Shown here: one piece after another, positions 33,855 through 58,352 of the stretch
Position numbering within the stretch: position 1 is the stretch's first letter
Layout: every line of letters starts with the position of its first letter
Origin: Deuterostichococcus epilithicus
Lineage: Eukaryota; Chlorophyta; Trebouxiophyceae; Prasiolales; Stichococcaceae
Assembly (NCBI GenBank): GCA_033439295.1
Contig: JAVTLE010000007.1
Location: forward strand, 310,001-374,000
DNA length: 64,000 nt
Direction: 5' to 3'
Translations under genes and position numbers: made by a program
Notes under the pieces: generated by a model
The model's input: only the letters and a program-made list of their open reading frames with translations
The model's database searches: none
What the model was told of the DNA's origin: nothing

Positions 33855-35052
33855 GTACGGTGTGGAGACTTGGGGGCCTGTGGCGCTGTGTGGCAAGGCC
33901 AGCGGCATGGAGGCTTGTGAGAAAGTGCAGAGGAGCTTTTTGCGGGCTCTTCTTGGCGTGCGTGCAGGCACGCCCAAGGCGGCGCTACTCGGCGAGGCGG
34001 GCCGCTTTGAGGCGGCGCACACAGCAGTGACGCTGATCTGCCGCTTCTGGAACCGGCTGGTGGACATGCCTGACGCGCGGCTGACCAAGCAGGCGTTCCT
34101 CGAGAACGTCAGCATGGCCGGCCGCGGCGGCGGCATCCACTCGGCCTGTTGGGCTGCCCAGGTGGCCTCGTTCCTGGACTTCATGTCCCCCATTGTTGAC
34201 GGTGTGCCGCAGCACATCGACCCTGACGCAGCCACGGCAGTGCTGCAGCGCCGACACTTTGAGTCGGTGAATGGCAGCGATGCCCGCAAGGTACGCGAGT
34301 GGCTGCAGATTCGGGGCCCTTTGGCTTTTGGTGCATGCGAACCAGCTATGTATCTGCAGGCGGTGGCCTCCAGGACCGGCCGTGTTCGGCTGGCGCAGTT
34401 TCGCACCGGCTCCCATTTGCTGCGGGTGGAGACAGGGCGGTGGGCCGGTCTGCCGCGCGAGCAGCGCAGCTGTCAGCGGCTGCGACAGCGGCGAGGTTGA
34501 TGACGCAGAGCACATGCTCTGGGGGTGTTTTGCTCTGCTAGACTTGCGCCTCCAGCACGTGGAGTTGTTCAGCCGGGGCGACGCCACGGTCGAGGCGTTC
34601 ATGCAACAGGACCCTGCCAGCTTGGGGGTGTTTCTGCGGCATTGCGCCGATCGCTGCGCGGAGCTAGAGGGCTTGGGCTCGAGCTCTCAATGAGGCCTAT
34701 CATCATCATGCTTTCGAGGCAGAGGGCACCTTGCTGTCGGGACTTTTGGAGTCGGCATGGGGGTAGATGGCGATTTCATTTTCTGTGTTTGGGTTTCGGA
34801 GTGGTGTGCCATAGCGCTCGCGGAATCCTGCGATGGGAGCGGCTAGCTCAGGTGCCGGGGGCACTTTAGGCATGTTGCGCAGTCAGACATCCCGCAGCCT
34901 TGGCAGCGGGAGGTTAGGCTTAGCGTGTGTTTTTCAGTCCTTGGCTTTTGTGTTTGGTCTGCTTCCACCAGCATGCAGGGCGCCTCACGGCGTTTCCGGT
35001 CCCAGCGAGCCAGAGAGCTCGGCGCCTTGTGCGCAACTGGTCCTGTATGTCT
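33855..35052 (+). mobile_element. LINE copy B: C-terminal half of RT ORF and 3' UTR
   Basis: The frame from 33862 (METWGPVALCGKASGME...) covers the post-RT region and runs to 34500. One extra base near the zinc-knuckle codons shifts the frame relative to copy A. The 3' UTR continues to about 35050, where it meets the left arm of the large inverted repeat. Confidence 0.8.
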
Positions 35053-35100
35053 GCATGATGATGATAGGCCTCATTGAGAGCTCGAGCCTCAGCCCACTAG

Positions 35101-36690
35101 CTATAGCTCCGCGCAGCGATCGGCGCAATGCCGCAGAAACACCCCCAAGCTGGCAGGGTCCTGCTGCATGAACGCCTCGACCGTGGCGTCGCCCCGGCTG
35201 AACAACTCCACGTGCTGGAGGCGCTGGTCTAGCAGAGCAGAACACCCCCAGAGCATGTGCTCTGTGTCATCAACCTCGCCGCTGTCGCAGCGCTGACAGC
35301 TGCGCTGCTCGCGCGGCAGACCGGCCCACCGCACTGTCTCTACCCGCAGCCAATGGGAGCCGGTGCGAAACTGCGCCAGCCGAACGCGGCCGGTCCTGGA
35401 GGCCACCGCCTGCAGATACATAGCTGGTTCGTAGGCACCAAAAGCCAGAGGTCCCCGAATCTGCAGCCACTCGCGTACCTTGCGGGCGTCGCTGCCATTC
35501 ACCGACTCAAAGTGTCGGCGCTGCAGCACCGCCGTGGCTGCGTCAGGGTCGATGTGCTGCGGCACACTGTCAACAATGGGAGACATGAAGTCCAGGAACG
35601 AGGCCATCTGGGCTGTCCAGCAGGCCGAGTGGATGCCGCCGCTGCGGCCGGCCATGCTGACGTTCTCGAGGAACGCCTGCTTGGTGAGCCGCGTGTCGGG
35701 CATGTCCACCAGCCGGTTCCAGAAGCGGCAGATCAGCGTCACTGCTGTGTGCGCCGCCTCAAAGCGGCCCGCCTCGCCGAGTAGCGCCGCCTTGGGCGTG
35801 CATGCACGCACGCCAAGAAGAGCCCGCAAAAAGCTCCTCTGCACTTTCTTACAAGCCTCCATGCCGCTGGCCTTGCCACACAGCGCCCCAGGCCCCCAAG
35901 TCTCCACACCGTACAACATCACCGGGCGCACAAGTGCGTCAAAGAGATGCATGAGCAGTGCAGGATCATGCAGCCTGAGATCACGACAGCGATTATGCAG
36001 TGCGAGCGCGGCGCGTCGGGCGGACGTCGCCCGGTCCGCTGCGCTCGATGCAAATGGCTTCGTGTTGTGCAGGTCAACCCCCAAGTACCTGAACGTGTCA
36101 AGCACCTCGATGGGGGCGGACATGCAGGTGAGCTGTGGCGCCGCCACTGCGCCGCGCGCGGTGGTGGTGTATACCACCACCTTCGTCTTCTTAACGTTGA
36201 CGGTGAGCCGCCAGCGCTTGCTGTAGGCCTGCAAGAGGTCCAGCTGCGCCTGCAGGCCGGCGACGGTGGTGGACACCAGTGCCAGGTCGTCCGCGTAGAA
36301 GAGTGCCGGCGTCTGCACGCCGGACAGTGTGGGAAGGGCGAAGCCGGCGGAGCCGGCTTCGAGCTTAGCCTGGAAGTCATCAATGAAGATGCCAAACAGG
36401 GTTGGAGAAAGTGGGCAGCCCTGTTTCACACCTAGCAGGGAATCGAACGTGGCAGACATGCCGTCAGCAAACTGCACCCCCATGGGCACCTCCGCATACA
36501 AAGCCTGCACCGCCCGCAAGAAGTCCCCATGCACCCCGATGCGTTGCAATTTGTGCCACAGCAGGTCACGTGGAATGGTGTCATATGCTTTTTTGAAGTC
36601 AACGTAACATACATACAGCGGCTTTTTGTCTGCACGGGCTCGCTCAATGAGCGTGCAGAGCACAAACACCTGGTCAATGGTGCGGTGGTT
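35101..36690 (-). mobile_element. LINE copy C: RT domain to C-terminus
   Basis: A minus-strand frame carries YVDFKKAYD, QGCPLSP, FYADDLALVS and the zinc knuckle in order, lacking only the N-terminal endonuclease and the start of RT. The open frame continues to 37176, but codons beyond about 36690 come from an inverted LINE piece and the SINE-like repeat, so that longer frame is a chimera. Its mirror lies at 55412-57001. Confidence 0.85.
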
Positions 36691-36907
36691 GACGGTGTGC
36701 CGCAGCACATCGACCCTGACGCAGCCACGACGGTGCTGCAGCGCCGACACTTTGAGTCGGTGAATGGCAGCGACGCCCGCAAGGTACGCGAGTGGCTGCA
36801 GATTCGGGGCCCTCTGGCTTTTGGTGCCTACGAACCAGCTATGTTTTTGCAGGCGGTGGCCTCCAGGACCGGCCGTGTTCGGCTGGCGCAGTTTCGCACC
36901 GGCTCCC
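36683..36907 (+). mobile_element. LINE fragment, plus orientation
   Basis: The sequence encodes HIDPDAATTVLQRRHFESVN through RLAQFRTGSHW of the LINE C-terminal region. It lies head-on against copy C and is cut by the SINE-like repeat, with the rest of the LINE (from about 37198) beyond it. Mirror at 55195-55419. Confidence 0.75.
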
Positions 36908-37195
36908 ATTGGGTTGGGGGGTGGTGGAGCGTGAAAAGTGAAAGAACCTTTGACCGGAAGGTTGGTTGTGAAAGTGGAATTAAATCCACTTATATACACA
37001 ACCAAGAGATGGTGGCGTGTCACCCGAAGGTGATCGATAGCGATGGGTGATTGCCGAAGCAATGCGAAAGCAGGGCAGTCATATGTATGACTATGACCCA
37101 ATTCACTCCTTTTTTTTGTCCGCATGACGAATCGAACTCGAGACCCCATGGGTATTTTTCCGTTTGTCAACCACAATTTTTCCGTTTTCCAACCA
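36908..37195 (-). mobile_element. SINE-like repeat, copy 3
   Basis: A copy of the 24523-24780 family with a local duplication of the GGAAAAAT segment at its 5' end. It sits inside LINE sequence. Mirror at 54907-55194. Confidence 0.6.
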
Positions 37196-37483
37196 GCACG
37201 TGGATTTGTGCAGCCGGGGCGACGCCACGGTCGAGGCGTTCATGCAGCAGGACCCTGCCAGCTTGGGGGTGTTTCTGCGGCATTGCGCCGATCGCAGCGC
37301 GGAGCTAGTGGGCTTGGGCTCGAGCTCTCAATGAGGCCTATCATCATCATGCTTTCGAGGCAGAGGGCACCTTGCTGTCGGGACTTTTGGGGTCGGCATG
37401 GGGGTAGATGGCGATTTCATTCTCTGTGTTTGGGTTTCGGAGTGGTGTGCCATAGCGCTCGCGGAATCCTGCGATGGGAGCGG

Positions 37484-38180
37484 CTTTTTGTTTTTTTGCT
37501 TGGTTTTTACAGTGGGCGTCCAGACAAAAGCCAAGTCCTAGAACAAGGCAATGCGGCACAATGCGGCATCCCACGTGTGAACGAGGGCGCGGCAGGGTGA
37601 ATCTCCAAAGGAATCGTCGTTCGAAAAATGTCGGTGGAGGACTCTGAACCACTGGGGAATGCAGGTCCTATGAGACTAGCGAAAGGCAATAGTCCCGATG
37701 AGGCTGAACTATCCGACGGTCCTGCAAGTGCCGGGTCACGGCGGCGGCGGCAGCAAAGCCATGCACACGCGGCTGGAACGATCCGCTGACAAACTAGCGC
37801 GCTAGATAAGACGTGGAGCCAAAGTCTCTATGTGCCACGGCACCCGCGGGTAAACCCAGTAAACCCCGCGCAGACATGCAGGCCGGTAGCGCACAAGGCG
37901 CCGAGCTCTGTGGCTCGCTGGGACCGTTCCGCCGCAAGGCGTCCTGCATGCTGGTGAAAGCAATCGAGCCCAAGGTAACAGAGGGCTGGCGCTCGCAATG
38001 GCTGACATCTAGGTGGCTGACGCCGCCAGCTATCGGCTAACGCGCAACGCCGGGCACCCCAGTCATCTGTGGTCGACGCCTCCATGGCAGCGGGTTCCGC
38101 GGGTGCCTGGCTCTAGATGAGTCCGTGCTATCGGTGGAATCCGGTCTTCTTCCATGTGCTCTCCCTCTAAGTCTCGGTGA
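37484..38180 (-). mobile_element. CAAA-tailed element, copy 2
   Basis: The complement of the body described at 32942-33854, with the tail (complement of AAACCAAGCAAAAAAACAAA) at about 37484-37510 and the conserved body out to about 38180. A CCACC-rich stretch follows to about 38590. Mirror at 53922-54618. Confidence 0.65.
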
Positions 38181-38591
38181 TGATGATGGTGATGGTGACG
38201 GCGACGGTTGGATGTTTTTCTTCGTGTTTGCGTGTGTGGTGTGGATGGTGACGATGGCAGTGAGGGTGAAGGTGCCAGCGGGGTGATGCGGCGGTACGGT
38301 GGTGACGGTGACGAGGCGGCGGGTAGGAAGGGAGTGGGAGGATGGCAAGGAGCAAGCGGTGGCAGTGTCGGCGGGTGGCGGCGTGCGGCATGTGGTGGCG
38401 GGTGGGGGGTGNCAGGAGGTGGCGGCTGACGGCGGCAAGCGGTGGCAGGGACGAGGGGTGGTGAGTGATGGGTGGTCGTGAGTGTTCGAAAACACTGTGT
38501 GGGCGGGTGGCGGGTGGCGGATGACGGCGGGTGACGGGCGGTGGGTGTCGGGTGGCAAGCTAGTAGAGAGCATAGTGGCGGGGTTTTTGTT

Positions 38592-38775
38592 GGTTTGTTT
38601 GTCTCTTTGACGCACTTGTGCGCCCAATGATGCTCTACGGTGTGGAGACTTTGGGGGCCTGGGGCGCTGTGTGGCAAGGCCAGCGGCATGGAGGCTTGTG
38701 AGAAAGTGCAGAGGAGCTTTTTGCGGGCTCTTCTTGGCGTGCGTGCAGGCACGCCCAAGGCGGCGCTACTACCGC
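38592..38775 (+). mobile_element. Short LINE RT-ORF fragment
   Basis: The sequence encodes the FDALVRPMMLYGVET region through LLGVRAGTPKAALL. It is bounded on both sides by CCACC-rich repeat. Mirror at 53327-53510. Confidence 0.75.
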
Positions 38776-39880
38776 CTACCACCTGCCACTATGCTCTCTA
38801 CTAGCTTGCCACCCGACACCCACCGCCCGTCACCCGCCGCCATCCGCCACTCGCCACCCGCCGTACAAACAGGGTTCTGAACACACGCCACCGCCCACAC
38901 AGTGTTTTCGAACACTCACGACCACCCATCACTCACCACCCCTCGTCTCTAGCCGCCACCTGCCGCCGCTTGCCACCTTTAGCCGCCACCTCCTGCCACC
39001 ACCCCCCCTGCCACCACCACCCGCTGCAGCCCACCATCCACCGTCACCGCCACTTGCTGCCGCCACCTGCCACCTGCCGCCCACCACCTGGCACCTACTT
39101 CTTTGCTGGCTTGCCATCCGGCACCCACCGCCCGTCACCCGCCGCCACCCGCCACCCGCCACCCNNCACCCGACGCAGCCCACCACCCGGCACTCCCCAC
39201 CATCCACCACTCACCACCACGTGCCGCCGCCACCTGCCACTTGCCACCTGCCGCCTACCACCTGCCACATGCTTCTTTGTGCGCTTGCCACCCGGCACCC
39301 ACCGCCCGTCACCCGCCGTCATCCGCCACCTGCCACCCGCCACCACCACCCGCCGCAGCCCACCACCTGGCACTCCTCACCATCCACTGCTCACCGCCAC
39401 ATGCCGCCGCCACCTGCCACCTGCCTGCCGCCTACCACCTGCCACCTGCCACTTTGTTGGCTTGCCACCCGGCACCCACCGCCCGTCACCCGCCGCCATC
39501 CGCCACCCGCCACCCGCCACTTGCCGCACAAACAGTGTTTCTAAACACTCGCCACCGCCCACACAGTGTTTTCGAACACTCACGACCACCCATCACTCAC
39601 CACCACTCGTTTCTAGCCGCCGCTCGCCACAGTCAGCCGCCACCTCCTGTCACCCCCCACCCGCCACCACATGCCGCACGCCGCCACCCGCCGACACTGC
39701 CACCGCTTGCTCCTTGCCATCCTCCCACCGCCTTCCTACCCGCCGCCTCGTCACCGTCACCACTGTACCGCCGCATCACCCCGCTGGCACCTTCACCCTC
39801 ACCATCATCGTCACCATCCACACCACACACGCAAACACGAAGAAAAACATCCAACCGTCGCCGTCACCATCACCATCATC
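38776..39880. repeat. CCACC-rich minisatellite
   Basis: About 1.1 kb is built from variants of CCACCTGCCAC, CACCCGCC and GGCACCCACCGCCCGTCACC in irregular higher-order repeats. It includes three ambiguous-free copies of a block of about 150 bp and one block with two N (39165-39166). Translations are Pro/His/Thr-rich nonsense. It leads directly into the CAAA-tailed element body. Mirror at 52221-53325. Confidence 0.75.
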
Positions 39881-40571
39881 ATCACCGAGACTTAGAGGGA
39901 GAGCACATGGAAGAAGACCGGATTCCACCGATAGCACGGACTCATCTAGAGCCAGGCACACGCGGAACCCGCTGCCATGGAGGCGTCGACCACAGATGAC
40001 TTGGGTGCCCGGCGTTGCGCGTTAGCCGATAGCTGGCGGCGTCAGCCGCCTAGATGTCAGCCATTGCGAGCGCCAGCCCTCTGTTACCTTGGGCTCGGTT
40101 GCTTCCACCAGCATGCAGGACGCCTTGCGGCGGAACGGCCCCAGCAAGCCACAGAGCTCGGCGCCTTGTGCGCTACCGGCCTGCATGTCTGCGCGGGGTT
40201 TACTGGATTTACCCGCGGGTGCCGTGGCACGTACAGACTTTGGCTCCACGTCTTATCTAGCGCGCTTTGTCAGCGGATCGTTCCAGCCGCGTGTGCATGG
40301 CTTTGCTGCCGCCGCCGTGACCCCGCACTTGCAGGACCGTCAGATAGTTCAGCCTCATCGGGAGTATTGCCTTTCGCTAGTCTCATAGGACCTGCATTCC
40401 CCAGTGGTTTCAGAGTCCTCCACCGACATTTTTCGAACGACGATTCCTTTGGAGATTCACCCCGCCGCGCCCTCGTTCACACGTGGGATGCCGCATTGTG
40501 CCGCATTGCCTTGTTCTTGGACTTGGCTTTGGTCGGGACGCCCACTGTAAAAACCAAATAAACAAAAAAAA
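39881..40571 (+). mobile_element. CAAA-tailed element, copy 3
   Basis: The conserved body from GAGACTTAGAGGGAGAGCAC to TGTAAAAACCAAATAAACAA plus an A run. It joins an RT-ORF fragment on its right. The 194-codon open frame in it is not conserved in other copies and is not called a gene. Mirror at 51530-52220. Confidence 0.65.
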
Positions 40572-40826
40572 GGCGGCGCTACTCGGCGAGGCGGGCCGCT
40601 TTGAGGCGACGCACACAGCAGTGACGCTGATCTGCCGCTTCTGGAACCGGCTGGTGGACATGCCCGACACGCGGCTCACCAAGCAGGCGTTCCTCGAGAA
40701 CGTCAGCATGGCCGGCCGCGGCGGCGGCATCCACTCGGCCTGCTGGGCTGCCCAGGTGGCCTCGTTCCTGGACTTCATGTCCCCCATTGTTGACGGTGTG
40801 CCGCAGCACATCGACCCTGACGCAGG
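40572..40826 (+). mobile_element. LINE RT-ORF fragment
   Basis: Encodes the stretch from AALLGEAGRFEATHTAV to QHIDPDA and then joins endonuclease-coding sequence in a single step. Mirror at 51275-51529. Confidence 0.75.
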
Positions 40827-41104
40827 TTACTTTTGTCAGCCAGAGTCAGGAGGGCAGCAGCCACATCGACTATGTGCTGGCCAGCCCTGACGCCATGCCC
40901 TTTATTCAGTCTTTGCAGGTGCTGCCGGCGCCGGAGTCGGACCACCTTACTGTGGTCTTGCAGATAGAGCGTCGCTCCGCAGCCAGCCCGACCTCGCAAC
41001 GGCGGCGCCCGCGCCGCCGGCCAGCAATGCCGCCGCCGCCGGCTCGCGAGCCGCCGCGCCTTAAGACGGACGTGCAGCTGGCCGGCTTACGCACACCGTC
41101 CTGA
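40827..41104 (+). mobile_element. LINE endonuclease C-terminal piece
   Basis: Encodes SHIDYVLASPDAMPF and, a few residues on, SDHLTVVL, the last two conserved blocks of the APE-type endonuclease. A Pro/Arg-rich run follows to a stop at 41102-41104. It lies upstream of ORF1, whereas the endonuclease N-terminal part lies downstream, so the order is permuted. Mirror at 50997-51274. Confidence 0.7.
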
Positions 41105-42520
41105 TTGCTCCACGCTTGCTGCTGCACTTGCATCATAAGCACAGCCACGCGCTCACGCCGCCCTGACACGCTTTCTGTGCAGCTTGTGGCTGACTGTCGG
41201 TTGGCCACGTCAGCCAGCACCAGTCGCACAGATCTGCAGCGGTTAGCCAAGAAATACTCTGTCTCCGTGCGTCCAGGCGCATCGGAGGAGACGATTCGGG
41301 AGCAGCTTCGTCGCCACTTTGCATCGTCTGGCGTGGAGACGACAGCAGCCCCGGCAGCGGCAACCGCAGCAGACCTGCCTTCCTTCCCTGCCCCTCATGT
41401 CAGTGACGCATCGTCGTCCCTGTCCTGCGCGCCTGCATCGCAGCCCCCCACGGAGCCACAGCAGCAGCCAGCCGCTCAGCAGCGGCTGCAGCAGGCTTCG
41501 GAGCGGCATGCCTCCGCATTGCAGAACCTGTCCGAGTCTAGCACGCACGTGTTCTCTAGTTCGCAGCCACCCTTCCACGCAGAGCTGACTAGCTTGCTCT
41601 TGCGTGCCAGGACGGCTGAGAATGAGGTGGCTCGCTTGCGCGCTCAGGTAGCGGCGAGTGACGCTGACAGGGTGCGCATTGTGGTGCAGGTGACGGAGGT
41701 CGTCAGCTTGACGGTGCAGGTCGTGCAGGCGCCCGCGGCGAGCTACGGCGTTGCGCAGGCGGCTGGCCCCAAGCCCACAGCGGCGCTGGACGGGCCGCAC
41801 GCCCAGGCCATCTGCCGGGCAGCGCCGCCGACGCCGGCCTCAGGGCCGGCAGCCGCGGCCGCGGCTCCACCGCACAGCTCGCAGCTGCAGCAGCCAGCGT
41901 CAGCGCCACAGAGCCCCGATTGGGTCATCTCTGGACTCGACTTTGCCGCCGGCAGCAGCCGCGATGCGGCGCACGCGGCAGTGGCAGATTTTGCCGCCGA
42001 GAGCCTCGGCATGGCTGACGCAGCACCGCTCATCACGGTGCTGCGCGTCAGCGGGCACCGCGATGGCCTGGCGGTCTTCCGGCTCGCGGACCGGTCTGTC
42101 GAGCGTGCGTTGCGCAGCGCCAAGGCGCTGCTGCCGCACGACTGCCCCGTCAGCATCTACCGCAGCCTGCCGCCGCAGCAGCGCGGCGCCNCCCCGCAGC
42201 TGCGACTAGCACGTCGCCAAGAGCAGCTGCTCACGCCGCAGGAGGTGGCGACCGCGCGCCGCGCGGCCAAGGCCGCGCTGGACTTCGCCCGACAGCGCAT
42301 CGCCGACCAGCGGCGCTCGCCGATTCACCGCGCTTTCCGCCCTCTTCCTGTTGCAGTCCCCCTGGGAGTGCCATCATTCTTCAGTGTCCTGCATGACGAG
42401 TCTGCACCCACTGCATCGCCGGACGTCCAGGCGCCGGCAGAGGGCTTTACCCCTCCGACGGCTGCGGCGGCCGCCGACCCCACCACCATGCCTGCTGCTG
42501 CACGCATCGATGTCTGCTAG
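41105..42520 (+). CDS. LINE ORF1 protein (coiled coil plus RRM-like), left copy
   Basis: A 471-codon open frame. The true start is unclear because the first 25 or so residues are Cys-rich and atypical. Residues about 160-210 (LLLRARTAENEVARLRAQVA) have coiled-coil character. Residues about 270-370 resemble an RRM-like fold followed by a C-terminal domain (DWVISGLDFAAGSS, ITVLRVSGHRDGLAVFRLAD, then VSIYRSLPPQQRGA), the plan of L1-type ORF1 RNA-binding proteins. An ambiguous base at 42191 affects one codon. The ORF2 endonuclease begins about 45 bp downstream. The role (binding element RNA) is inferred from architecture. Confidence 0.6.
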   Translation: MLHACCCTCIISTATRSRRPDTLSVQLVADCRLATSASTSRTDLQRLAKKYSVSVRPGASEETIREQLRRHFASSGVETTAAPAAATAADLPSFPAPHVSDASSSLSCAPASQPPTEPQQQPAAQQRLQQASERHASALQNLSESSTHVFSSSQPPFHAELTSLLLRARTAENEVARLRAQVAASDADRVRIVVQVTEVVSLTVQVVQAPAASYGVAQAAGPKPTAALDGPHAQAICRAAPPTPASGPAAAAAAPPHSSQLQQPASAPQSPDWVISGLDFAAGSSRDAAHAAVADFAAESLGMADAAPLITVLRVSGHRDGLAVFRLADRSVERALRSAKALLPHDCPVSIYRSLPPQQRGAXPQLRLARRQEQLLTPQEVATARRAAKAALDFARQRIADQRRSPIHRAFRPLPVAVPLGVPSFFSVLHDESAPTASPDVQAPAEGFTPPTAAAAADPTTMPAAARIDVC

Positions 42521-42565
42521 GGGTGTTGGGGCCGGGCTGAGCCCGGTGCCGTCCGGTCCCCTCAC

Positions 42566-43005
42566 AGCTCATTGTCCGTGTTGCACCTGAACGTCCATGG
42601 CTGGCTCTCAAGAAATGCGTTTGCTATCACGCAGGCCATCCAGGGAGCGGCCTACGACGTTCTGGTGTTCACGGAGACCTGGCTGCGGGAGGGCGCTGAC
42701 GCGCCGGAGCTGGCAGGCTACACCGCCATCCTCAATCTGCCTCGGAGCCGAAAGCTTCAGCACGGCGGCACGCGAGGCGGCATCGCCGTCTACGTCGCTG
42801 ACGCGCTGACTAAAGGTCACGGTGCTGTCGACAGGGCCACAGGGCTGCTATGCCTTGTTGTGTCTTGATGGCTGCATCGGGCAGGAGGAGGATGCATACA
42901 TGTTTGCATGCTACATTCCGCCAGAGGGCAGCTCAGCACTAGTTGGGAAGGGACCTGCGGTTTGGGAGGCATTGCGTGAGGAGGTCGGGGCCACCTCGCG
43001 CTTGG
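42566..43005 (+). mobile_element. LINE ORF2 endonuclease N-terminal part, broken
   Basis: Opens with SVLHLNVHGWLSRNAF and YDVLVFTETWL, the first conserved blocks of APE-type endonucleases, then GGTRGGIAVYV. Near 42840 the frame shifts; the homologous continuation (FACYIPPEGSSALVGKG) is in another frame. The piece stops at about 43005 against the hexamer tail of an inverted LINE 3' end. Mirror at 49096-49535. Confidence 0.75.
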
Positions 43006-44800
43006 GTCTTGGACTTAGACTTGGTTACATACTGTGCAGTCAAGTGGCTGACTATAGCACAGGCCCGAAGGCGGTCGGAATGCGCAACAGCAAGCGACAA
43101 GCTGAGGGAACAAACGGAAAGGGCGTCGAGCAGATCGAAACGACATCGGCAACCATGTCCAGTCACAGAGTCATGTGCCACAGCACCCGCGGGTAAACCC
43201 AGTAAAACCCGTGCAGACATACAGGGCCAGTTGCGCGCAAAGCGCCGAGCTCTCTGGCTCGCTTGGACTGGAAACGCCGTGAGGCGCCCTGCATGCTGGT
43301 GGAAACAGGCCAAACACAAAAGCCAAGGACTGAAAAACACCTGCTAGGCCTGACCTCCCGCTGCCAAGGCTGCGGGATGTCTGACTGCGCAACATGCCTA
43401 AAGTGCCCCCGGCATCTGAGCTAGCCGCTCCCATCGCAGGATTCCGCGAGCGCTATGGCACACCACTCCGAAACCCAAACACAGAGAATGAAATCGCCAT
43501 CTACCCCCATGCCGGCCCCGAAAGTCCCGACAGCAAGGTGCCCTCTGCCTCGAAAGCATGATGATGATAGGCCTCATTGAGAGCTCGAGCCCCAGCCCAC
43601 TAGCTCCGCGCAGCGATCGGCGCAATGCCGCAGAAACACCCCCAAGCTGGCAGGGTCCTGCTGCATGAACGCCTCGACTGTGGCGTCGCCCCGGCTGAAC
43701 AGCTCCACGTGCTGGAGGCGCTGGTCTAGCAGAGCAGAACACCCCCAGAGCATGTGCTCTGCGTCATCAACCTCGCTGCTGTCGCAGCGCTGACAGCTGC
43801 GCTGCTCGCGCGGCAACCCAGCCCACCGCCCTGTCTCCACCCGCAGCCAATGGGAGCCGGTGCGAAACTGCGCCAGCCGAACGCGGCCGGTCCTGGAGGC
43901 CACCGCCTGCAGATACATAGCTGGTTCGTAGGCACCAAAAGCCAAAGGGCCCCGAATCTGCAGCCACTCGCGTACCTTGCGGGCGTCGCTGCCATTCACC
44001 AACTTAAAGTGTCGGCGCTGCAGCACCGCCGTGGCTGCGTCAGGGTCGATGTGCTGCGGCACACTGTCAACAATGGCAGACATGAAGTCCAGGAACGGGG
44101 CCATCTGGGCTGTCCAGCAGGCCGAGTGGATGCCGCCGCTGCGGCCGGCCATGCTGACGTTCTCGAGGAACGCCTGCTTGGTGAGCCGCGTGTCGGGCAT
44201 GTCCACCAGCCGGTTCCAGAAGCGGCAGATCAGCGTCACTGCTGTGTGCGCCGCCTCAAAGCGGCCCGCCTCGCCGAGTAGCGCCGCCTTGGGCGTGCAT
44301 GCACGCACGCCAAGAAGAGCCCGCAAAAAGCTCCTCTGCACTTTCTTACAAGCCTCCATGCCGCTGGCCTTGCCACACAGCGCCCCAGGCCCCCAAGTCT
44401 CCACACCGTACCAACATCACCGGGCGCACAAGTGCGTCAAAGAGATGCATGAGCAGTGCAGGATCACGCAGCCCGAGATCACGACAGCGATTATGCAGTG
44501 CGAGCGCGGCGCGTCGGGCGGACGCCGCCCGGTCCGCTGCGCTCGAAGCAAATGGCTTCGTGCTGTGCAGGTCAACCCCAGGTACCTGAACGTGTCAAGC
44601 ACCTCGATGGGGGCGGACATGTAGGTGAGCTGTGGCGCCGCCACTGCGCCGCGCGCGGTGGTGGTGTAAACCACCACCTTCGTCTTCTTAACGTTGACGG
44701 TGAGCCGCCAGCGCTTGCTGTAGGCCTGCAAGAGGTCCAGCTGCGCCTGCAGGCCGGCGACGGTGGTGGACACCAGTGCCAGGTCGTCCGCGTAGAAGAG
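43006..44800 (-). mobile_element. LINE copy D: 3' half, minus
   Basis: From the inside out: RT motif C region (FYADDLALV) at about 44790, post-RT region with METWGPGALC near 44404, zinc knuckle at about 43760, 3' UTR, and a degenerate hexamer tail at about 43006-43024. A one-base change near 44577 and one near 44411 shift the frame relative to copy C. Mirror at 47301-49095. Confidence 0.85.
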
Positions 44801-45265
44801 CTGAGCTCGAAGCCGGCTCCGCCGGCTTCGCTCTTCCCACACTGTCCGGCGTGCAGACGCCGGCGCTCTTCTAAACGGACGACCTGGCACTGGTGTCCAC
44901 CACCGTCGCCGGCCTGCAGGCGCAGCTGGACCTCTTGCAGGCATACAGCAAGCGCTGGCGGCTCACCGTCAACGTCAAGAAGACGAAGGTGGTGGTTTAC
45001 ACCACCGCGCGCGGCGCGGTGGCGGCGCCACAGCTCACCTACATGTCCGCCCCCATCGAGGTGCTTGACACGTTCAGGTACTTGGGGGTTGACCTGCACA
45101 GCACGAAGCCATTTGCTTCGAGCGCAGCGGACCGGGCGGCGTCTGCTCGACGCGCCGCGCTCGCACTGCATAATCGCTGTCGTGATCTCGGGCTGCGTGA
45201 TCCTGCACTGCTCATGCATCTTTTTGACGCACTTGTGCGCCCGGTGATGCTGTACGGTGTGGAGC

Positions 45266-46929: not shown

Positions 46930-46964
46930 GCGCCCACGCCGACCGCCCCCGCCTGCGCCGACCG

Positions 46965-49095
46965 CCCCCGTGCAGACAAAAAGCCGCTGTATGTATGTTA
47001 CGTTGACTTCAAAAAGCATATGACACCATTCCACGTGATTTGCTGTGGCACAAACTGCAGCGCATCGGGGTGCATGGGGACTTCTTGCGGGCGGTGCAGG
47101 CTTTGTATGCGGAGGTGCCCATGGGGGTGCAGTTTGCTGACGGCATGTCTGCCACGTTCGATTCCCTGCTAGGTGTGAAACAGGGCTGCCCACTTTCTCC
47201 AACCCTGTTTGGCATCTTCATTGATGACTTCCAGGCTGAGCTCGAAGCCGGCTCCGCCGGCTTCGCTCTTCCCACACTGTCCGGCGTGCAGACGCCGGCA
47301 CTCTTCTACGCGGACGACCTGGCACTGGTGTCCACCACCGTCGCCGGCCTGCAGGCGCAGCTGGACCTCTTGCAGGCCTACAGCAAGCGCTGGCGGCTCA
47401 CCGTCAACGTTAAGAAGACGAAGGTGGTGGTTTACACCACCACCGCGCGCGGCGCAGTGGCGGCGCCACAGCTCACCTACATGTCCGCCCCCATCGAGGT
47501 GCTTGACACGTTCAGGTACCTGGGGTTGACCTGCACAGCACGAAGCCATTTGCTTCAAGCGCAGCGGACCGGGCGGCGTCCGCCCGACGCGCCGCGCTCG
47601 CACTGCATAATCGCTGTCGTGATCTCGGGCTGCGTGATCCTGCACTGCTCATGCATCTCTTTGACGCACTTGTGCGCCCGGTGATGTTGGTACGGTGTGG
47701 AGACTTGGGGGCCTGGGGCGCTGTGTGGCAAGGCCAGCGGCATGGAGGCTTGTAAGAAAGTGCAGAGGAGCTTTTTGCGGGCTCTTCTTGGCGTGCGTGC
47801 ATGCACGCCCAAGGCGGCGCTACTCGGCGAGGCGGGCCGCTTTGAGGCGGCGCACACAGCAGTGACGCTGATCTGCCGCTTCTGGAACCGGCTGGTGGAC
47901 ATGCCCGACACGCGGCTCACCAAGCAGGCGTTCCTCGAGAACGTCAGCATGGCCGGCCGCAGCGGCGGCATCCACTCGGCCTGCTGGACAGCCCAGATGG
48001 CCCCGTTCCTGGACTTCATGTCTGCCATTGTTGACAGTGTGCCGCAGCACATCGACCCTGACGCAGCCACGGCGGTGCTGCAGCGCCGACACTTTGAGTC
48101 GGTGAATGGCAGCGACGCCCGCAAGGTACGCGAGTGGCTGCAGATTCGGGGCCCTCTGGCTTTTGGTGCCTACGAACCAGCTATGTATCTGCAGGCGGTG
48201 GCCTCCAGGACCGGCCGCGTTCGGCTGGCGCAGTTTCGCACCGGCTCCCATTGGCTGCGGGTGGAGACAGGGCGGTGGGCTGGGTTGCCGCGCGAGCAGC
48301 GCAGCTGTCAGCGCTGCGACAGCAGCGAGGTTGATGACGCAGAGCACATGCTCTGGGGGTGTTCTGCTCTGCTAGACCAGCGCCTCCAGCACGTGGAGCT
48401 GTTCAGCCGGGGCGACGCCACAGTCGAGGCGTTCATGCAGCAGGACCCTGCCAGCTTGGGGGTGTTTCTGCGGCATTGCGCCGATCGCTGCGCGGAGCTA
48501 GTGGGCTGGGGCTCGAGCTCTCAATGAGGCCTATCATCATCATGCTTTCGAGGCAGAGGGCACCTTGCTGTCGGGACTTTCGGGGCCGGCATGGGGGTAG
48601 ATGGCAATTTCATTCTCTGTGTTTGGGTTTCGGAGTGGTGTGCCATAGCGCTCGCGGAATCCTGCGATGGGAGCGGCTAGCTCAGATGCCGGGGGCACTT
48701 TAGGCATGTTGCGTAGTCAGACATCCCGCAGCCTTGGCAGCGGGAGGTCAGGCCTAGCAGGTGTTTTTCAGTCCTTGGCTTTTGTGTTTGGCCTGTTTCC
48801 ACCAGCATGCAGGGCGCCTCACGGCGTTTCCAGTCCAAGCGAGCCAGAGAGCTCGGCGCTTTGCGCGCAACTGGCCCTGTATGTCTGCACGGGTTTTACT
48901 GGGTTTACCCGCGGGTGCTGTGGCACATGACTCTGTGACTGGACATGGTTGCCGATGTCGTTTCGATCTGCTCGACGCCCTTTCCGTTTGTTCCCTCAGC
49001 TTGTCGCTTGCTGTTGCGCATTCCGACCGCCTTCGGGCCTGTGCTATAGTCAGCCACTTGACTGCACAGTATGTAACCAAGTCTAAGTCCAAGAC
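46965..49095 (+). mobile_element. LINE copy D', RT to 3' end
   Basis: Mirror partner of copy D but longer at its 5' side, because it begins in the spacer. RT motif A is out of frame with the rest: the A run in the FKKAYD codons has five A here and six in other copies. QGCPLSP and FYADDLALV follow in one frame; the same one-base change as in copy D then shifts the frame near 47524. The ORF from 47697 to 48527 carries the post-RT region and zinc knuckle. Confidence 0.85.
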
Positions 49096-49580
49096 CCAAG
49101 CGCGAGGTGGCCCCGACCTCCTCACGCAATGCCTCCCAAACCGCAGGTCCCTTCCCAACTAGTGCTGAGCTGCCCTCTGGCGGAATGTAGCATGCAAACA
49201 TGTATGCATCCTCCTCCTGCCCGATGCAGCCATCAAGACACAACAAGGCATAGCAGCCCTGTGGCCCTGTCGACAGCACCGTGACCTTTAGTCAGCGCGT
49301 CAGCGACGTAGACGGCGATGCCGCCTCGCGTGCCGCCGTGCTGAAGCTTTCGGCTCCGAGGCAGATTGAGGATGGCGGTGTAGCCTGCCAGCTCCGGCGC
49401 GTCAGCGCCCTCCCGCAGCCAGGTCTCCGTGAACACCAGAACGTCGTAGGCCGCTCCCTGGATGGCCTGCGTGATAGCAAACGCATTTCTTGAGAGCCAG
49501 CCATGGACGTTCAGGTGCAACACGGACAATGAGCTGTGAGGGGACCGGACGGCACCGGGCTCAGCCCGGCCCCAACACCC

Positions 49581-50996
49581 CTAGCAGACATCGATGCGTG
49601 CAGCAGCAGGCATGGTGGTGGGGTCGGCGGCCGCCGCAGCCGTCGGAGGGGTAAAGCCCTCTGCCGGCGCCTGGACGTCCGGCGATGCAGTGGGTGCAGA
49701 CTCGTCATGCAGGACACTGAAGAATGATGGCACTCCCAGGGGGACTGCAACAGGAAGAGGGCGGAAAGCGCGGTGAATCGGCGAGCGCCGCTGGTCGGCG
49801 ATGCGCTGTCGGGCGAAGTCCAGCGCGGCCTTGGCCGCGCGGCGCGCGGTCGCCACCTCCTGCGGCGTGAGCAGCTGCTCTTGGCGACGTGCTAGTCGCA
49901 GCTGCGCGGCGGCGCCGCGCTGCTGCGGCGGCAGGCTGCGGTAGATGCTGACGGGGCAGTCGTGCGGCAGCAGCGCCTTGGCGCTGCGCAACGCACGCTC
50001 GACAGACCGGTCCGCGAGCCGGAAGACCGCCAGGCCATCGCGGTGCCCGCTGACGCGCAGCACCGTGATGAGCGGTGCTGCGTCAGCCATGCCGAGGCTC
50101 TCGGCGGCAAAATCTGCCACTGCCGCGTGCGCCGCATCGCGGCTGCTGCCGGCGGCAAAGTCGAGTCCAGAGATGACCCAATCGGGGCTCTGTGGCGCTG
50201 ACGCTGGCTGCTGCAGCTGCGAGCTGTGCGGTGGAGCCGCGGCCGCGGCTGCCGGCCCTGAGGCCGGCGTCGGCGGCGCTGCCCGGCAGATGGCCTGGGC
50301 GTGCGGCCCGTCCAGCGCCGCTGTGGGCTTGGGGCCAGCCGCCTGCGCAACGCCGTAGCTCGCCGCGGGCGCCTGCACGACCTGCACCGTCAAGCTGACG
50401 ACCTCCGTCACCTGCACCACAATGCGCACCCTGTCAGCGTCACTCGCCGCTACCTGAGCGCGCAAGCGAGCCACCTCATTCTCAGCCGTCCTGGCACGCA
50501 AGAGCAAGCTAGTCAGCTCTGCGTGGAAGGGTGGCTGCGAACTAGAGAACACGTGCGTGCTAGACTCGGACAGGTTCTGCAATGCGGAGGCATGCCGCTC
50601 CGAAGCCTGCTGCAGCCGCTGCTGAGCGGCTGGCTGCTGCTGTGGCTCCGTGGGGGGCTGCGATGCAGGCGCGCAGGACAGGGACGACGATGCGTCACTG
50701 ACATGAGGGGCAGGGAAGGAAGGCAGGTCTGCTGCGGTTGCCGCTGCCGGGGCTGCTGTCGTCTCCACGCCAGACGATGCAAAGTGGCGACGAAGCTGCT
50801 CCCGAATCGTCTCCTCCGATGCGCCTGGACGCACGGAGACAGAGTATTTCTTGGCTAACCGCTGCAGATCTGTGCGACTGGTGCTGGCTGACGTGGCCAA
50901 CCGACAGTCAGCCACAAGCTGCACAGAAAGCGTGTCAGGGCGGCGTGAGCGCGTGGCTGTGCTTATGATGCAAGTGCAGCAGCAAGCGTGGAGCAA
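49581..50996 (-). CDS. LINE ORF1 protein, right copy
   Basis: Mirror of 41105-42520. The translation is identical apart from the residues at the left arm's ambiguous base, where this copy reads QQRGAAAQLRLA. This arm has no N in the gene, so it is the better reference for the protein. Confidence 0.6.
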   Translation of the reverse strand: MLHACCCTCIISTATRSRRPDTLSVQLVADCRLATSASTSRTDLQRLAKKYSVSVRPGASEETIREQLRRHFASSGVETTAAPAAATAADLPSFPAPHVSDASSSLSCAPASQPPTEPQQQPAAQQRLQQASERHASALQNLSESSTHVFSSSQPPFHAELTSLLLRARTAENEVARLRAQVAASDADRVRIVVQVTEVVSLTVQVVQAPAASYGVAQAAGPKPTAALDGPHAQAICRAAPPTPASGPAAAAAAPPHSSQLQQPASAPQSPDWVISGLDFAAGSSRDAAHAAVADFAAESLGMADAAPLITVLRVSGHRDGLAVFRLADRSVERALRSAKALLPHDCPVSIYRSLPPQQRGAAAQLRLARRQEQLLTPQEVATARRAAKAALDFARQRIADQRRSPIHRAFRPLPVAVPLGVPSFFSVLHDESAPTASPDVQAPAEGFTPPTAAAAADPTTMPAAARIDVC

Positions 50997-53900
50997 TCAG
51001 GACGGTGTGCGTAAGCCGGCCAGCTGCACGTCCGTCTTAAGGCGCGGCGGCTCGCGAGCCGGCGGCGGCGGCATTGCTGGCCGGCGGCGCGGGCGCCGCC
51101 GTTGCGAGGTCGGGCTGGCTGCGGAGCGACGCTCTATCTGCAAGACCACAGTAAGGTGGTCCGACTCCGGCGCCGGCAGCACCTGCAAAGACTGAATAAA
51201 GGGCATGGCGTCAGGGCTGGCCAGCACATAGTCGATGTGGCTGCTGCCCTCCTGACTCTGGCTGACAAAAGTAACCTGCGTCAGGGTCGATGTGCTGCGG
51301 CACACCGTCAACAATGGGGGACATGAAGTCCAGGAACGAGGCCACCTGGGCAGCCCAGCAGGCCGAGTGGATGCCGCCGCCGCGGCCGGCCATGCTGACG
51401 TTCTCGAGGAACGCCTGCTTGGTGAGCCGCGTGTCGGGCATGTCCACCAGCCGGTTCCAGAAGCGGCAGATCAGCGTCACTGCTGTGTGCGTCGCCTCAA
51501 AGCGGCCCGCCTCGCCGAGTAGCGCCGCCTTTTTTTTGTTTATTTGGTTTTTACAGTGGGCGTCCCGACCAAAGCCAAGTCCAAGAACAAGGCAATGCGG
51601 CACAATGCGGCATCCCACGTGTGAACGAGGGCGCGGCGGGGTGAATCTCCAAAGGAATCGTCGTTCGAAAAATGTCGGTGGAGGACTCTGAAACCACTGG
51701 GGAATGCAGGTCCTATGAGACTAGCGAAAGGCAATACTCCCGATGAGGCTGAACTATCTGACGGTCCTGCAAGTGCGGGGTCACGGCGGCGGCAGCAAAG
51801 CCATGCACACGCGGCTGGAACGATCCGCTGACAAAGCGCGCTAGATAAGACGTGGAGCCAAAGTCTGTACGTGCCACGGCACCCGCGGGTAAACCCAGTA
51901 AACCCCGCGCAGACATGCAGGCCGGTAGCGCACAAGGCGCCGAGCTCTGTGGCTTGCTGGGGCCGTTCCGCCGCAAGGCGTCCTGCATGCTGGTGGAAGC
52001 AACCGAGCCCAAGGTAACAGAGGGCTGGCGCTCGCAATGGCTGACATCTAGGCGGCTGACGCCGCCAGCTATCGGCTAACGCGCAACGCCGGGCACCCAA
52101 GTCATCTGTGGTCGACGCCTCCATGGCAGCGGGTTCCGCGTGTGCCTGGCTCTAGATGAGTCCGTGCTATCGGTGGAATCCGGTCTTCTTCCATGTGCTC
52201 TCCCTCTAAGTCTCGGTGATGATGATGGTGATGGTGACGGCGACGGTTGGATGTTTTTCTTCGTGTTTGCGTGTGTGGTGTGGATGGTGACGATGATGGT
52301 GAGGGTGAAGGTGCCAGCGGGGTGATGCGGCGGTACAGTGGTGACGGTGACGAGGCGGCGGGTAGGAAGGCGGTGGGAGGATGGCAAGGAGCAAGCGGTG
52401 GCAGTGTCGGCGGGTGGCGGCGTGCGGCATGTGGTGGCGGGTGGGGGGTGACAGGAGGTGGCGGCTGACTGTGGCGAGCGGCGGCTAGAAACGAGTGGTG
52501 GTGAGTGATGGGTGGTCGTGAGTGTTCGAAAACACTGTGTGGGCGGTGGCGAGTGTTTAGAAACACTGTTTGTGCGGCAAGTGGCGGGTGGCGGGTGGCG
52601 GATGGCGGCGGGTGACGGGCGGTGGGTGCCGGGTGGCAAGCCAACAAAGTGGCAGGTGGCAGGTGGTAGGCGGCAGGCAGGTGGCAGGTGGCGGCGGCAT
52701 GTGGCGGTGAGCAGTGGATGGTGAGGAGTGCCAGGTGGTGGGCTGCGGCGGGTGGTGGTGGCGGGTGGCAGGTGGCGGATGACGGCGGGTGACGGGCGGT
52801 GGGTGCCGGGTGGCAAGCGCACAAAGAAGCATGTGGCAGGTGGTAGGCGGCAGGTGGCAAGTGGCAGGTGGCGGCGGCACGTGGTGGTGAGTGGTGGATG
52901 GTGGGGAGTGCCGGGTGGTGGGCTGCGGCGCTGNGGCGGGNGGCGGGTGGCGGATGGCGGCGGGTGACGGGCGGTGGGTGCCGGATGGCAAGCCAGCAAA
53001 GAAGTAGGTGGCAGGTGGTGGGCGGCAGGTGGCAGGTGGCGGCAGCAAGTGGCGGTGACGGTGGATGGTGGGCTGCAGCGGGTGGTGGTGGCAGGGGGGG
53101 TGGTGGCAGGAGGTGGCGGCTAAAGGTGGCAAGCGGCGGCAGGTGGCGGCTAGAGACGAGGGGTGGTGAGTGATGGGTGGTCGTGAGTGTTCGAAAACAC
53201 TGTGTGGGCGGTGGCGTGTGTTCAGAACCCTGTTTGTACGGCGGGTGGCGAGTGGCGGATGGCGGCGGGTGACGGGCGGTGGGTGTCGGGTGGCAAGCTA
53301 GTAGAGAGCATAGTGGCAGGTGGTAGGCGGTAGTAGCGCCGCCTTGGGCGTGCCTGCACGCACGCCAAGAAGAGCCCGCAAAAAGCTCCTCTGCACTTTC
53401 TCACAAGCCTCCATGCCGCTGGCCTTGCCACACAGCGCCCCAGGCCCCCAAAGTCTCCACACCGTAGAGCATCATTGGGCGCACAAGTGCGTCAAAGAGA
53501 CAAACAAACCAACAAAAACCCCGCCACTATGCTCTCTACTAGCTTGCCACCCGACACCCACCGCCCGTCACCCGCCGTCATCCGCCACCCGCCACCCGCC
53601 CACACAGTGTTTTCGAACACTCACGACCACCCATCACTCACCACCCCTCGTCCCTGCCACCGCTTGCCGCCGTCAGCCGCCACCTCCTGNCACCCCCCAC
53701 CCGCCACCACATGCCGCACGCCGCCACCCGCCGACACTGCCACCGCTTGCTCCTTGCCATCCTCCCACTCCCTTCCTACCCGCCGCCTCGTCACCGTCAC
53801 CACCGTACCGCCGCATCACCCCGCTGGCACCTTCACCCTCACTGCCATCGTCACCATCCACACCACACACGCAAACACGAAGAAAAACATCCAACCGTCG

Positions 53901-54906
53901 CCGTCACCATCACCATCATCATCACCGAGACTTAGAGGGAGAGCACATGGAAGAAGACCGGATTCCACCGATAGCACGGACTCATCTAGAGCCAGGCACC
54001 CGCGGAACCCGCTGCCATGGAGGCGTCGACCACAGATGACTGGGGTGCCCGGCGTTGCGCGTTAGCCGATAGCTGGCGGCGTCAGCCACCTAGATGTCAG
54101 CCATTGCGAGCGCCAGCCCTCTGTTACCTTGGGCTCGATTGCTTTCACCAGCATGCAGGACGCCTTGCGGCGGAACGGTCCCAGCGAGCCACAGAGCTCG
54201 GCGCCTTGTGCGCTACCGGCCTGCATGTCTGCGCGGGGTTTACTGGGTTTACCCGCGGGTGCCGTGGCACATAGAGACTTTGGCTCCACGTCTTATCTAG
54301 CGCGCTAGTTTGTCAGCGGATCGTTCCAGCCGCGTGTGCATGGCTTTGCTGCCGCCGCCGCCGTGACCCGGCACTTGCAGGACCGTCGGATAGTTCAGCC
54401 TCATCGGGACTATTGCCTTTCGCTAGTCTCATAGGACCTGCATTCCCCAGTGGTTCAGAGTCCTCCACCGACATTTTTCGAACGACGATTCCTTTGGAGA
54501 TTCACCCTGCCGCGCCCTCGTTCACACGTGGGATGCCGCATTGTGCCGCATTGCCTTGTTCTAGGACTTGGCTTTTGTCTGGACGCCCACTGTAAAAACC
54601 AAGCAAAAAAACAAAAAGCCGCTCCCATCGCAGGATTCCGCGAGCGCTATGGCACACCACTCCGAAACCCAAACACAGAGAATGAAATCGCCATCTACCC
54701 CCATGCCGACCCCAAAAGTCCCGACAGCAAGGTGCCCTCTGCCTCGAAAGCATGATGATGATAGGCCTCATTGAGAGCTCGAGCCCAAGCCCACTAGCTC
54801 CGCGCTGCGATCGGCGCAATGCCGCAGAAACACCCCCAAGCTGGCAGGGTCCTGCTGCATGAACGCCTCGACCGTGGCGTCGCCCCGGCTGCACAAATCC
54901 ACGTGC

Positions 54907-55194
54907 TGGTTGGAAAACGGAAAAATTGTGGTTGACAAACGGAAAAATACCCATGGGGTCTCGAGTTCGATTCGTCATGCGGACAAAAAAAAGGAGTGAA
55001 TTGGGTCATAGTCATACATATGACTGCCCTGCTTTCGCATTGCTTCGGCAATCACCCATCGCTATCGATCACCTTCGGGTGACACGCCACCATCTCTTGG
55101 TTGTGTATATAAGTGGATTTAATTCCACTTTCACAACCAACCTTCCGGTCAAAGGTTCTTTCACTTTTCACGCTCCACCACCCCCCAACCCAAT
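54907..55194 (+). mobile_element. SINE-like repeat, copy 4 (mirror of copy 3)
   Basis: Same as 36908-37195 in reverse, within LINE sequence. The start of the 691-codon open frame at 54926 lies in this repeat. Confidence 0.6.
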
Positions 55195-55411
55195 GGGAGC
55201 CGGTGCGAAACTGCGCCAGCCGAACACGGCCGGTCCTGGAGGCCACCGCCTGCAAAAACATAGCTGGTTCGTAGGCACCAAAAGCCAGAGGGCCCCGAAT
55301 CTGCAGCCACTCGCGTACCTTGCGGGCGTCGCTGCCATTCACCGACTCAAAGTGTCGGCGCTGCAGCACCGTCGTGGCTGCGTCAGGGTCGATGTGCTGC
55401 GGCACACCGTC

Positions 55412-57001
55412 AACCACCGCACCATTGACCAGGTGTTTGTGCTCTGCACGCTCATTGAGCGAGCCCGTGCAGACAAAAAGCCGCTGTATGTATGTTACGT
55501 TGACTTCAAAAAAGCATATGACACCATTCCACGTGACCTGCTGTGGCACAAATTGCAACGCATCGGGGTGCATGGGGACTTCTTGCGGGCGGTGCAGGCT
55601 TTGTATGCGGAGGTGCCCATGGGGGTGCAGTTTGCTGACGGCATGTCTGCCACGTTCGATTCCCTGCTAGGTGTGAAACAGGGCTGCCCACTTTCTCCAA
55701 CCCTGTTTGGCATCTTCATTGATGACTTCCAGGCTAAGCTCGAAGCCGGCTCCGCCGGCTTCGCCCTTCCCACACTGTCCGGCGTGCAGACGCCGGCACT
55801 CTTCTACGCGGACGACCTGGCACTGGTGTCCACCACCGTCGCCGGCCTGCAGGCGCAGCTGGACCTCTTGCAGGCCTACAGCAAGCGCTGGCGGCTCACC
55901 GTCAACGTTAAGAAGACGAAGGTGGTGGTATACACCACCACCGCGCGCGGCGCAGTGGCGGCGCCACAGCTCACCTGCATGTCCGCCCCCATCGAGGTGC
56001 TTGACACGTTCAGGTACTTGGGGGTTGACCTGCACAACACGAAGCCATTTGCATCGAGCGCAGCGGACCGGGCGACGTCCGCCCGACGCGCCGCGCTCGC
56101 ACTGCATAATCGCTGTCGTGATCTCAGGCTGCATGATCCTGCACTGCTCATGCATCTCTTTGACGCACTTGTGCGCCCGGTGATGTTGTACGGTGTGGAG
56201 ACTTGGGGGCCTGGGGCGCTGTGTGGCAAGGCCAGCGGCATGGAGGCTTGTAAGAAAGTGCAGAGGAGCTTTTTGCGGGCTCTTCTTGGCGTGCGTGCAT
56301 GCACGCCCAAGGCGGCGCTACTCGGCGAGGCGGGCCGCTTTGAGGCGGCGCACACAGCAGTGACGCTGATCTGCCGCTTCTGGAACCGGCTGGTGGACAT
56401 GCCCGACACGCGGCTCACCAAGCAGGCGTTCCTCGAGAACGTCAGCATGGCCGGCCGCAGCGGCGGCATCCACTCGGCCTGCTGGACAGCCCAGATGGCC
56501 TCGTTCCTGGACTTCATGTCTCCCATTGTTGACAGTGTGCCGCAGCACATCGACCCTGACGCAGCCACGGCGGTGCTGCAGCGCCGACACTTTGAGTCGG
56601 TGAATGGCAGCGACGCCCGCAAGGTACGCGAGTGGCTGCAGATTCGGGGCCCTCTGGCTTTTGGTGCCTACGAACCAGCTATGTATCTGCAGGCGGTGGC
56701 CTCCAGGACCGGCCGCGTTCGGCTGGCGCAGTTTCGCACCGGCTCCCATTGGCTGCGGGTGGAGACAGGGCGGTGGGCCGGTCTGCCGCGCGAGCAGCGC
56801 AGCTGTCACCGCTGCGACAGCAGCGAGGTTGATGACGCAGAGCACATGCTCTGGGGGTGTTCTGCTCTGCTAGACCAGCGCCTCCAGCACGTGGAGTTGT
56901 TCAGCCGGGGCGACGCCACGGTCGAGGCGTTCATGCAGCAGGACCCTGCCAGCTTGGGGGTGTTTCTGCGGCATTGCGCCGATCGCTGCGCGGAGCTATA
57001 G
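55412..57001 (+). mobile_element. LINE copy C' (mirror of copy C): RT to C-terminus
   Basis: Carries YVDFKKAYD, QGCPLSP, FYADDLALVS and a CHRC-x9-H-x4-C knuckle without internal stops. It differs from copy C mainly in the last 450 bp, for example ETGRWAG against ETVRWAG and CHRCDSSEVDDAE against CQRCDSGEVDDTE. The N-terminal endonuclease is missing. Confidence 0.85.
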
Positions 57002-57049
57002 CTAGTGGGCTGAGGCTCGAGCTCTCAATGAGGCCTATCATCATCATGC

Positions 57050-57600: not shown

Positions 57601-57838
57601 CCTTTCGCTAGTCTCATAGGACCTGCATTCCCCAGTGGTTTCAGCGTCCGCCCCCAAGTCCTCCACCGACATTTTTTGAACCACGATTCCTTTGGAGATT
57701 CACCCCGCCGCGCCCTCATTCACACGTGGGATGCCGCATTGTGCCGCATTGCCTTGTTCTAGGACTTGGCTTTGGTCTGGACGCCCACTGTAAAAAACAA
57801 ACAAACAAACAAACAAACAAACAAACAAACAAACAAAT
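57601..57838 (+). mobile_element. CAAA-tailed element, 5'-truncated copy with long tail
   Basis: Only the last 190 bp of the body are present, joined directly to the LINE hexamer tail, followed by TGTAAAAAA and ten or so CAAA units. This is the longest CAAA tail here and probably the youngest insertion of this element. Confidence 0.75.
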
Positions 57839-58350: not shown

Positions 58351-58352
58351 AC

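Follow-up and report, generated by a model that had tools for sequence, protein, structure and literature searches.

We identified a near-perfect inverted repeat with 9.75-kb arms in a 64,000-nucleotide stretch of the green alga Deuterostichococcus epilithicus (the window; positions 310001-374000 of contig JAVTLE010000007.1, called C6 here, one of 21 contigs in a 46.8-Mb genome). The repeat is a true feature of the assembly, and the structure is known here from assembled contigs alone. It is probably a real, recent inverted duplication within a centromere-like cluster of long interspersed nuclear elements (LINEs), with a doubtful outer join and an unreliable phase of the variants between the arms. 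For its origin, we lean slightly towards a recent inverted duplication of a ~10-kb block of the cluster, with the right arm as the source and the left arm as the copy, both assignments being tentative.

Self-BLAST of the window matched 35053-44800 to 57049-47301 on the minus strand over 9,749 columns at 99.754% identity, with 23 mismatches and one gap, and chance was rejected as the cause on this match. The initial annotation of the window had described a 9.75-kb inverted repeat around a 2.5-kb spacer, with mirrored coordinates summing to 92101 or 92102 and with arms nearly free of indels that differ by substitutions, and each of these points was borne out. The spacer between the arms measures 2,500 bp (44801-47300), mirrored coordinates add up to 92102 from 35053 to 39168 and to 92101 from 39169 to 44800, the sole gap lies in low-complexity sequence, and the mirrored identity ends at both arm ends. 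The longest stretch without a mirror mismatch begins at 35453 and measures 3,638 bp. Each arm is tiled by ~15 homologous segments that are mirrored in the other arm, so that the annotated figure of some twenty element fragments was roughly right. The mirrored segments agree with the accompanying claim that every fragment is older than the duplication, but this would not follow if conversion had overwritten one arm.

A self-alignment listing the arm differences, which the initial annotation had proposed, gave 24 differing columns, consisting of 14 ordinary substitutions and 10 columns of N or low-complexity sequence (39091-39173, plus the N at 42191). An N lies three bases away from one of the 14 substitutions (42194). 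Leaving low-complexity sequence aside, the arms are distinguished by substitutions alone, and 10 of the 14 are transitions. The terminal LINE copies hold 12 of the 14 substitutions, and the arm middle holds the other two in 5.7 of 9.1 kb (binomial P 0.0003). Five of the 12 terminal variants were absent from the other LINE stretches of ten clusters (92 and 130 stretches compared); two of these private variants are in the right arm (35293 and 44544) and three in the left arm (35333, 35341 and 35452). Since five substitutions are private, two physical copies of the arm are favoured. A second contig, C2, also carries both private right-arm variants, and this speaks against one arm having simply been printed twice. 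Among LINE copies the median pairwise identity was 96.35% (253 pairs from 23 one-kb copies, the arm and C2 copies included), and the best pair from outside the repeat locus reached 99.08%. Because the divergence of the arms lies far below that of the LINE-copy median (99.75% vs 96.35% identity), the duplication would be either young or homogenised.

The arms consist of pieces of a LINE that encodes an RVT_1 domain (E 2.2e-25 in the reverse transcriptase frame 25858-27645), together with other repeats that are best matched within the same clusters. We call the LINE Zepp-like, a name given by pattern, no Zepp sequence having been compared. Both boundaries of the right arm lie inside uninterrupted LINE copies (46967-49101 and 55413-57602). 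At each boundary of the left arm two oppositely oriented LINE copies meet, sharing one or two bases. Because the right boundaries lie within running LINE copies and the left ones are LINE-to-LINE joins, we tentatively take the left arm as the copy, which is also the simplest reading. At 44800 the inner minus copy meets a plus fragment (reference 321-785) head to head with a one-base overlap. The left outer join in C6 passes from plus reference position 1972 to minus 1634, and the LINE 3' end is missing there. At 12 of 14 abutting plus-then-minus LINE pairs from seven clusters the LINE 3' end was intact, as insertion would give, four of these 12 joins being units of one tandem array. The only other join of the 14 without the 3' end, C15:894857 (+1929/-1578), is similar to the left outer join in its LINE coordinates. 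The 200-bp sequence of the left outer join had no second full-length match among the best 40 of 274 candidates. The spacer core (45265-46966) was matched over its full length only in C6 and C2; shorter matches were an 846-bp part in C1 and a 76-bp repeat.

Three other origins for the left arm or its inner join were considered. A fold-back at the short palindrome 44399-45264 is not favoured, the halves being just ~92% alike, nor is twin-priming of one LINE at 44800, given the ~92% likeness and an overlap of the segments by 400 reference bases. A native left arm, in which one host LINE was interrupted by the inner copy, was unsupported, as the LINE pieces at its flanks leave 246 bases unexplained with the C5 copy and more with that on C13.

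C2 is a contig of 14,706 bp from the same locus. Positions 105-10403 of C2 matched window 57602-47301 at 99.84%, and positions 658-14660 matched window 35053-49081 at 99.27%. It thus holds an arm, the whole spacer and 1.78 kb at the start of the second arm, the remainder of which is found in C6 only. The arm-spacer-arm core is supported because both spacer ends adjoin an arm in two contigs. In C2 the arm continues to the LINE 3' end, giving a 10.3-kb arm, and the complete LINE tail, with four tail repeats as against three in the right copy of C6, abuts a plus LINE copy (51 bases, reference 1960-2010, 43 identical). C2 is noisy in parts: 46 positions are changed between 44920 and 45197, and its ends contain N. 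At sites 43495 and 43945 it agrees with the phase of C6, at 44001 and 44005 both of its copies carry the right type, and the left-arm outer variants 35265, 35333, 35341 and 35452 of C6 are not in C2. We compared seven junctions and searched ten clusters for a source from which the head of C2 could have been borrowed, and none fitted both sides.

We propose that a ~10-kb block was recently copied in inverted orientation beside itself, which could have occurred by break repair (end joining) or by replication template switching. The arms would later have gained about a dozen differences by mutation or by exchange with other LINE copies, or alternatively may have been kept alike by gene conversion. 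Several observations weigh against this proposal. In C2 the types at two sites, 43387 and 44544, are exchanged, those of the right arm adjoining the left spacer end and those of the left arm the right end, and the left outer join of C6 is 584 bp shorter than the complete LINE tail of C2. As variant phase and left outer junction conflict in this way, at least one of the two contigs is misphased or misjoined; the phase conflict itself could reflect flipping, conversion or misphasing. The arm differences are concentrated in the terminal LINE copies, and seven of the 12 terminal variants are also present in other LINE copies. Mis-mapped polishing reads could produce both patterns; the seven shared variants could also stem from exchange between LINE copies, and the scarcity of substitutions in the arm middle could be due to gene conversion or to mis-mapped polishing. 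Finally, joins like the left inner one (minus head, then plus) are common in the clusters and are expected at the 5' ends of ordinary insertions. Because the same type occurs there, this join is no proof of a rearrangement break, and the direction of copying is weakly founded. The initial annotation had offered a recent duplication-inversion, gene conversion and an artefact as explanations, and all three are retained here.

The main rival to a recent inverted duplication is an assembly artefact, in which near-identical LINE copies caused a misjoin or a doubled block and the cell has one arm or another arrangement. We consider this less likely. In its favour, C2 covers the same locus in a small contig of its own, whose ends are noisy and contain N, the two contigs conflict on the left junction and the arm phase, the left outer join and the second arm past its first 1.78 kb are found in C6 alone, and all 11 N of the window (38412-53690) lie within the repeat and spacer. 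Against it stand the spacer-arm joins, which are present at both ends in two contigs, and the substitutions between the arms, two of which, on the right arm, are confirmed in C2 and unseen elsewhere. Palindromic reads from a missed adapter would be expected to lack a unique spacer and differing flanks. The unique 2.5-kb spacer and the differing flanks are therefore unexpected for such a read, and with a spacer that is not palindromic as a whole, a missed-adapter (hairpin) read is not favoured as the sole cause. Less probable still, in our judgement, is an older palindrome that has been homogenised by gene conversion, with recombination also flipping the spacer, so that C6 and C2 would be two isomers. 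Such behaviour is described for a 24-kb flip/flop region close to a centromere of Saccharomyces (PMC9731477), and both the near absence of differences from the arm middle and the exchanged types of 43387 and 44544 in C2 would suit such a history; but the C6 phase at 43495 and 43945 and the right type in both C2 copies at 44001 and 44005 do not, and misphasing would yield the same picture. C2 as an exact flipped isomer was unsupported, given its mosaic phase and a head that joins a plus LINE copy rather than the right flank of C6.

The least probable of the explanations is that the left arm is a giant LINE-type retro-insertion, antisense and 5'-truncated, of a 10.3-kb read-through RNA that extended from the inner to the outer LINE copy and was reverse transcribed. 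The outer end of the C2 arm, a complete LINE 3' end and tail against a plus LINE, is the usual insertion join; the tail counts four repeats where the right copy has three, the inner end is shaped like a 5' truncation, and at both ends the source LINE copies run in the sense direction of such an RNA. However, no target-site duplication was seen, the host coordinates on the two sides being ~2010 and 321. By contrast, where nested insertions interrupt a host element in C18 (776697-778693) and C19 (763586-765057), the two host parts overlap by 12 and 14 bases. The RNA would also have had to ignore the internal tail near 49093, and the reading relies on 51 noisy bases of C2.

We investigated the surroundings of the repeat with a query taken from it. 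Among the best 40 of 113 candidates, every one of the 15 contigs measuring at least 1.6 Mb showed a single compact cluster of matches, and no match fell on the shorter contigs of nuclear type, C16 (1.06 Mb), C17 (0.38 Mb) and C8 (29 kb). Contig C1 starts with CCCTAAA telomere repeats, and C20 and C21 start low in GC (0.33 and 0.28) and are organelle-like. In keeping with Zepp-type clusters, there is one cluster per chromosome-scale contig, the copies are nested and mostly 5'-truncated with varying start points and a shared 3' end, and RVT_1 is present in the window and the clusters. Further reverse-transcriptase genes exist outside the clusters. By analogy with the Zepp clusters of other green algae, the window probably spans the centromere of its chromosome. 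The cluster is GC-rich, and in the sequence to either side of it (window 14000-24000 and 58000-64000) GC drops to 0.47-0.52.

Ten clusters were read, that of the window and nine others in stretches of 14-30 kb, the comparison excluding the clusters of C3, C9, C10, C11 and C12. The longest inverted pairs of the nine others were 1.1 to 2.86 kb, so that an inverted repeat of at least 3 kb was found in one of the ten clusters. The next longest pair, C14:1399694-1402544 / 1404882-1407735, has arms of 2,855 bp, 99.23% identity and a 2.3-kb spacer. An inverted repeat as a standard part of the centromere was unsupported, the stretches read from the nine other clusters having no comparable repeat. Near-identical tandem duplications were found in the clusters of C19 (5.2 kb, 99.65%), C15 (2.2 kb, 99.35%) and C6 (3.7 kb, 99.10%), and these duplications, all >99% identical, show frequent rearrangement of the LINE clusters. 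Tandem units of ~2.1 kb in C19:753438-760718 and of ~0.88 kb in C15:906913-909947 are >99% identical.

In Coccomyxa subellipsoidea C-169 each chromosome has one nested cluster of Zepp LINEs, interpreted as its probable centromere (PMC3446292), in Chlamydomonas Zepp-like (ZeppL) elements mark putative centromeres (PMC8226300), and in two Chlorella species transposon-rich centromeres are supported by chromatin immunoprecipitation sequencing (ChIP-seq) of CENH3 (PMC11005252). The clusters described here resemble those of Zepp and ZeppL in their nested, often 5'-truncated LINE copies, in the single GC-rich cluster per chromosome and in the centromere reading, but differ in the 9.75-kb near-perfect inverted repeat within one cluster and in a LINE 3' tail of CCAAGT-type repeats. 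The string "palindrom" is absent from the retrieved text of PMC8226300 on Chlamydomonas and PMC11005252 on Chlorella centromeres (PMC3446292 was not searched for it), and among the retrieved titles and abstract openings on Zepp and green-alga retrotransposon centromeres none dealt with palindromes in centromeres of this kind.

In having a core between two inverted arms of kilobase scale, the repeat resembles centromeres of Candida, Komagataella and other yeasts (PMC7292649, PMC12711049). Candida tropicalis and C. sojae are described as having a homogenised inverted repeat at all seven centromeres, with arms of 3-12 kb and a core of ~2 kb in C. sojae (PMC7292649); here, in contrast, the repeat occurs at one of ten clusters and its arms are mostly retrotransposon debris. 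The high identity of the arms relative to the LINE median matches the homogenisation of the C. tropicalis type, and youth would look alike. The best precedent for a single inverted repeat is Barnettozyma, in which inverted repeats with arms 99-100% identical occur at only 3-5 centromeres per species and are suggested by the authors to arise or vanish in place (PMC12711049). There, however, the arms are 0.5-4.3 kb, in long intergenic regions and at centromeres mapped by Hi-C (PMC12711049), whereas here a 9.75-kb repeat lies in a LINE cluster taken as a centromere by pattern. On Saccharomyces chromosome XIV a near-identical inverted repeat near the centromere is likewise kept alike and the intervening DNA inverts (PMC9731477), but the region there comprises 24 kb with 15 genes and 4-kb repeats, and flipping is shown there and just hinted here. 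Origin-dependent inverted-repeat amplification also gives interstitial inverted copies, by a replication error at short inverted repeats, but its product is an inverted triplication (PMC4689423), and here there are two copies only. At most, the present repeat may work like the yeast systems by analogy. It is very improbable that a hybrid centromere, with a homogenised 10-kb inverted repeat, a unique 2.5-kb core and flipping, has arisen in the LINE-cluster centromere of this alga; as to both orientations of the spacer, the phases of C2 and C6 differ in a mosaic pattern.

If the repeat is real, retrotransposon centromeres of a green alga undergo large and very recent inverted duplication, and the locus offers a defined place for testing recombination and gene conversion inside a centromere. 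If it is an artefact, contig structure in such clusters would be untrustworthy even in near chromosome-level assemblies. A hybrid centromere, if true, would mean that a yeast-type inverted-repeat centromere can start within a retrotransposon centromere.

Table 1. Features of the inverted repeat and its surroundings (window coordinates)
Feature	Position	Strand	Remarks
Left arm	35053..44800	+	Both ends are joins between opposite-orientation LINE copies; tentatively the derived copy
Spacer	44801..47300	.	2.5 kb; core 45265-46966
Right arm	47301..57049	-	Both ends inside LINE copies that continue; tentatively the source
Reference Zepp-like LINE copy	26060..28239	+	3' 2.2 kb, numbered 1-2180; reverse transcriptase frame 25858-27645
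LINE fragment left of left arm	33855..35054	+	Reference 773-1972
Outer LINE copy, left arm	35053..36689	-	Reference 1634-1; without 3' end in C6, complete in C2
Inner LINE copy, left arm	43008..44800	-	Reference 2180-386
Inner LINE copy, right	46967..49101	+	Reference 52-2180; spans repeat boundary 47301
Outer LINE copy, right arm	55413..57602	+	Complete to 3' tail of CCAAGT-type repeats
Short imperfect palindrome (92.5%)	44399..45264	.	At left inner join
Low-complexity stretch	38516..39546	.	Flanked by inverted 1.0-kb repeat 37481-38516 / 39546-40575; mirrored in right arm
471-codon open frame	41105..42520	+	Left arm; mirror 49581-50996, minus strand

The 471-codon open frame (41105..42520) had a Pfam match only below threshold, and it may perhaps be open reading frame 1 of the LINE, which is a guess. 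The 76-bp repeat of the spacer core (46032-46107) occurs, often with 100% identity, on every cluster-bearing contig except C18 (14 of 15). It is also found at 28608-28683, directly ahead of a tandem array (28683-32939) of about seven units of 580-585 bp that are 97-99% alike, each unit pairing LINE fragments in inverted orientation (reference -1363 joined to +1965). An open frame at window 6872-7705 carries a sub-threshold EF-hand pair (E 3.3e-5) and may resemble a PP2A B'' subunit.

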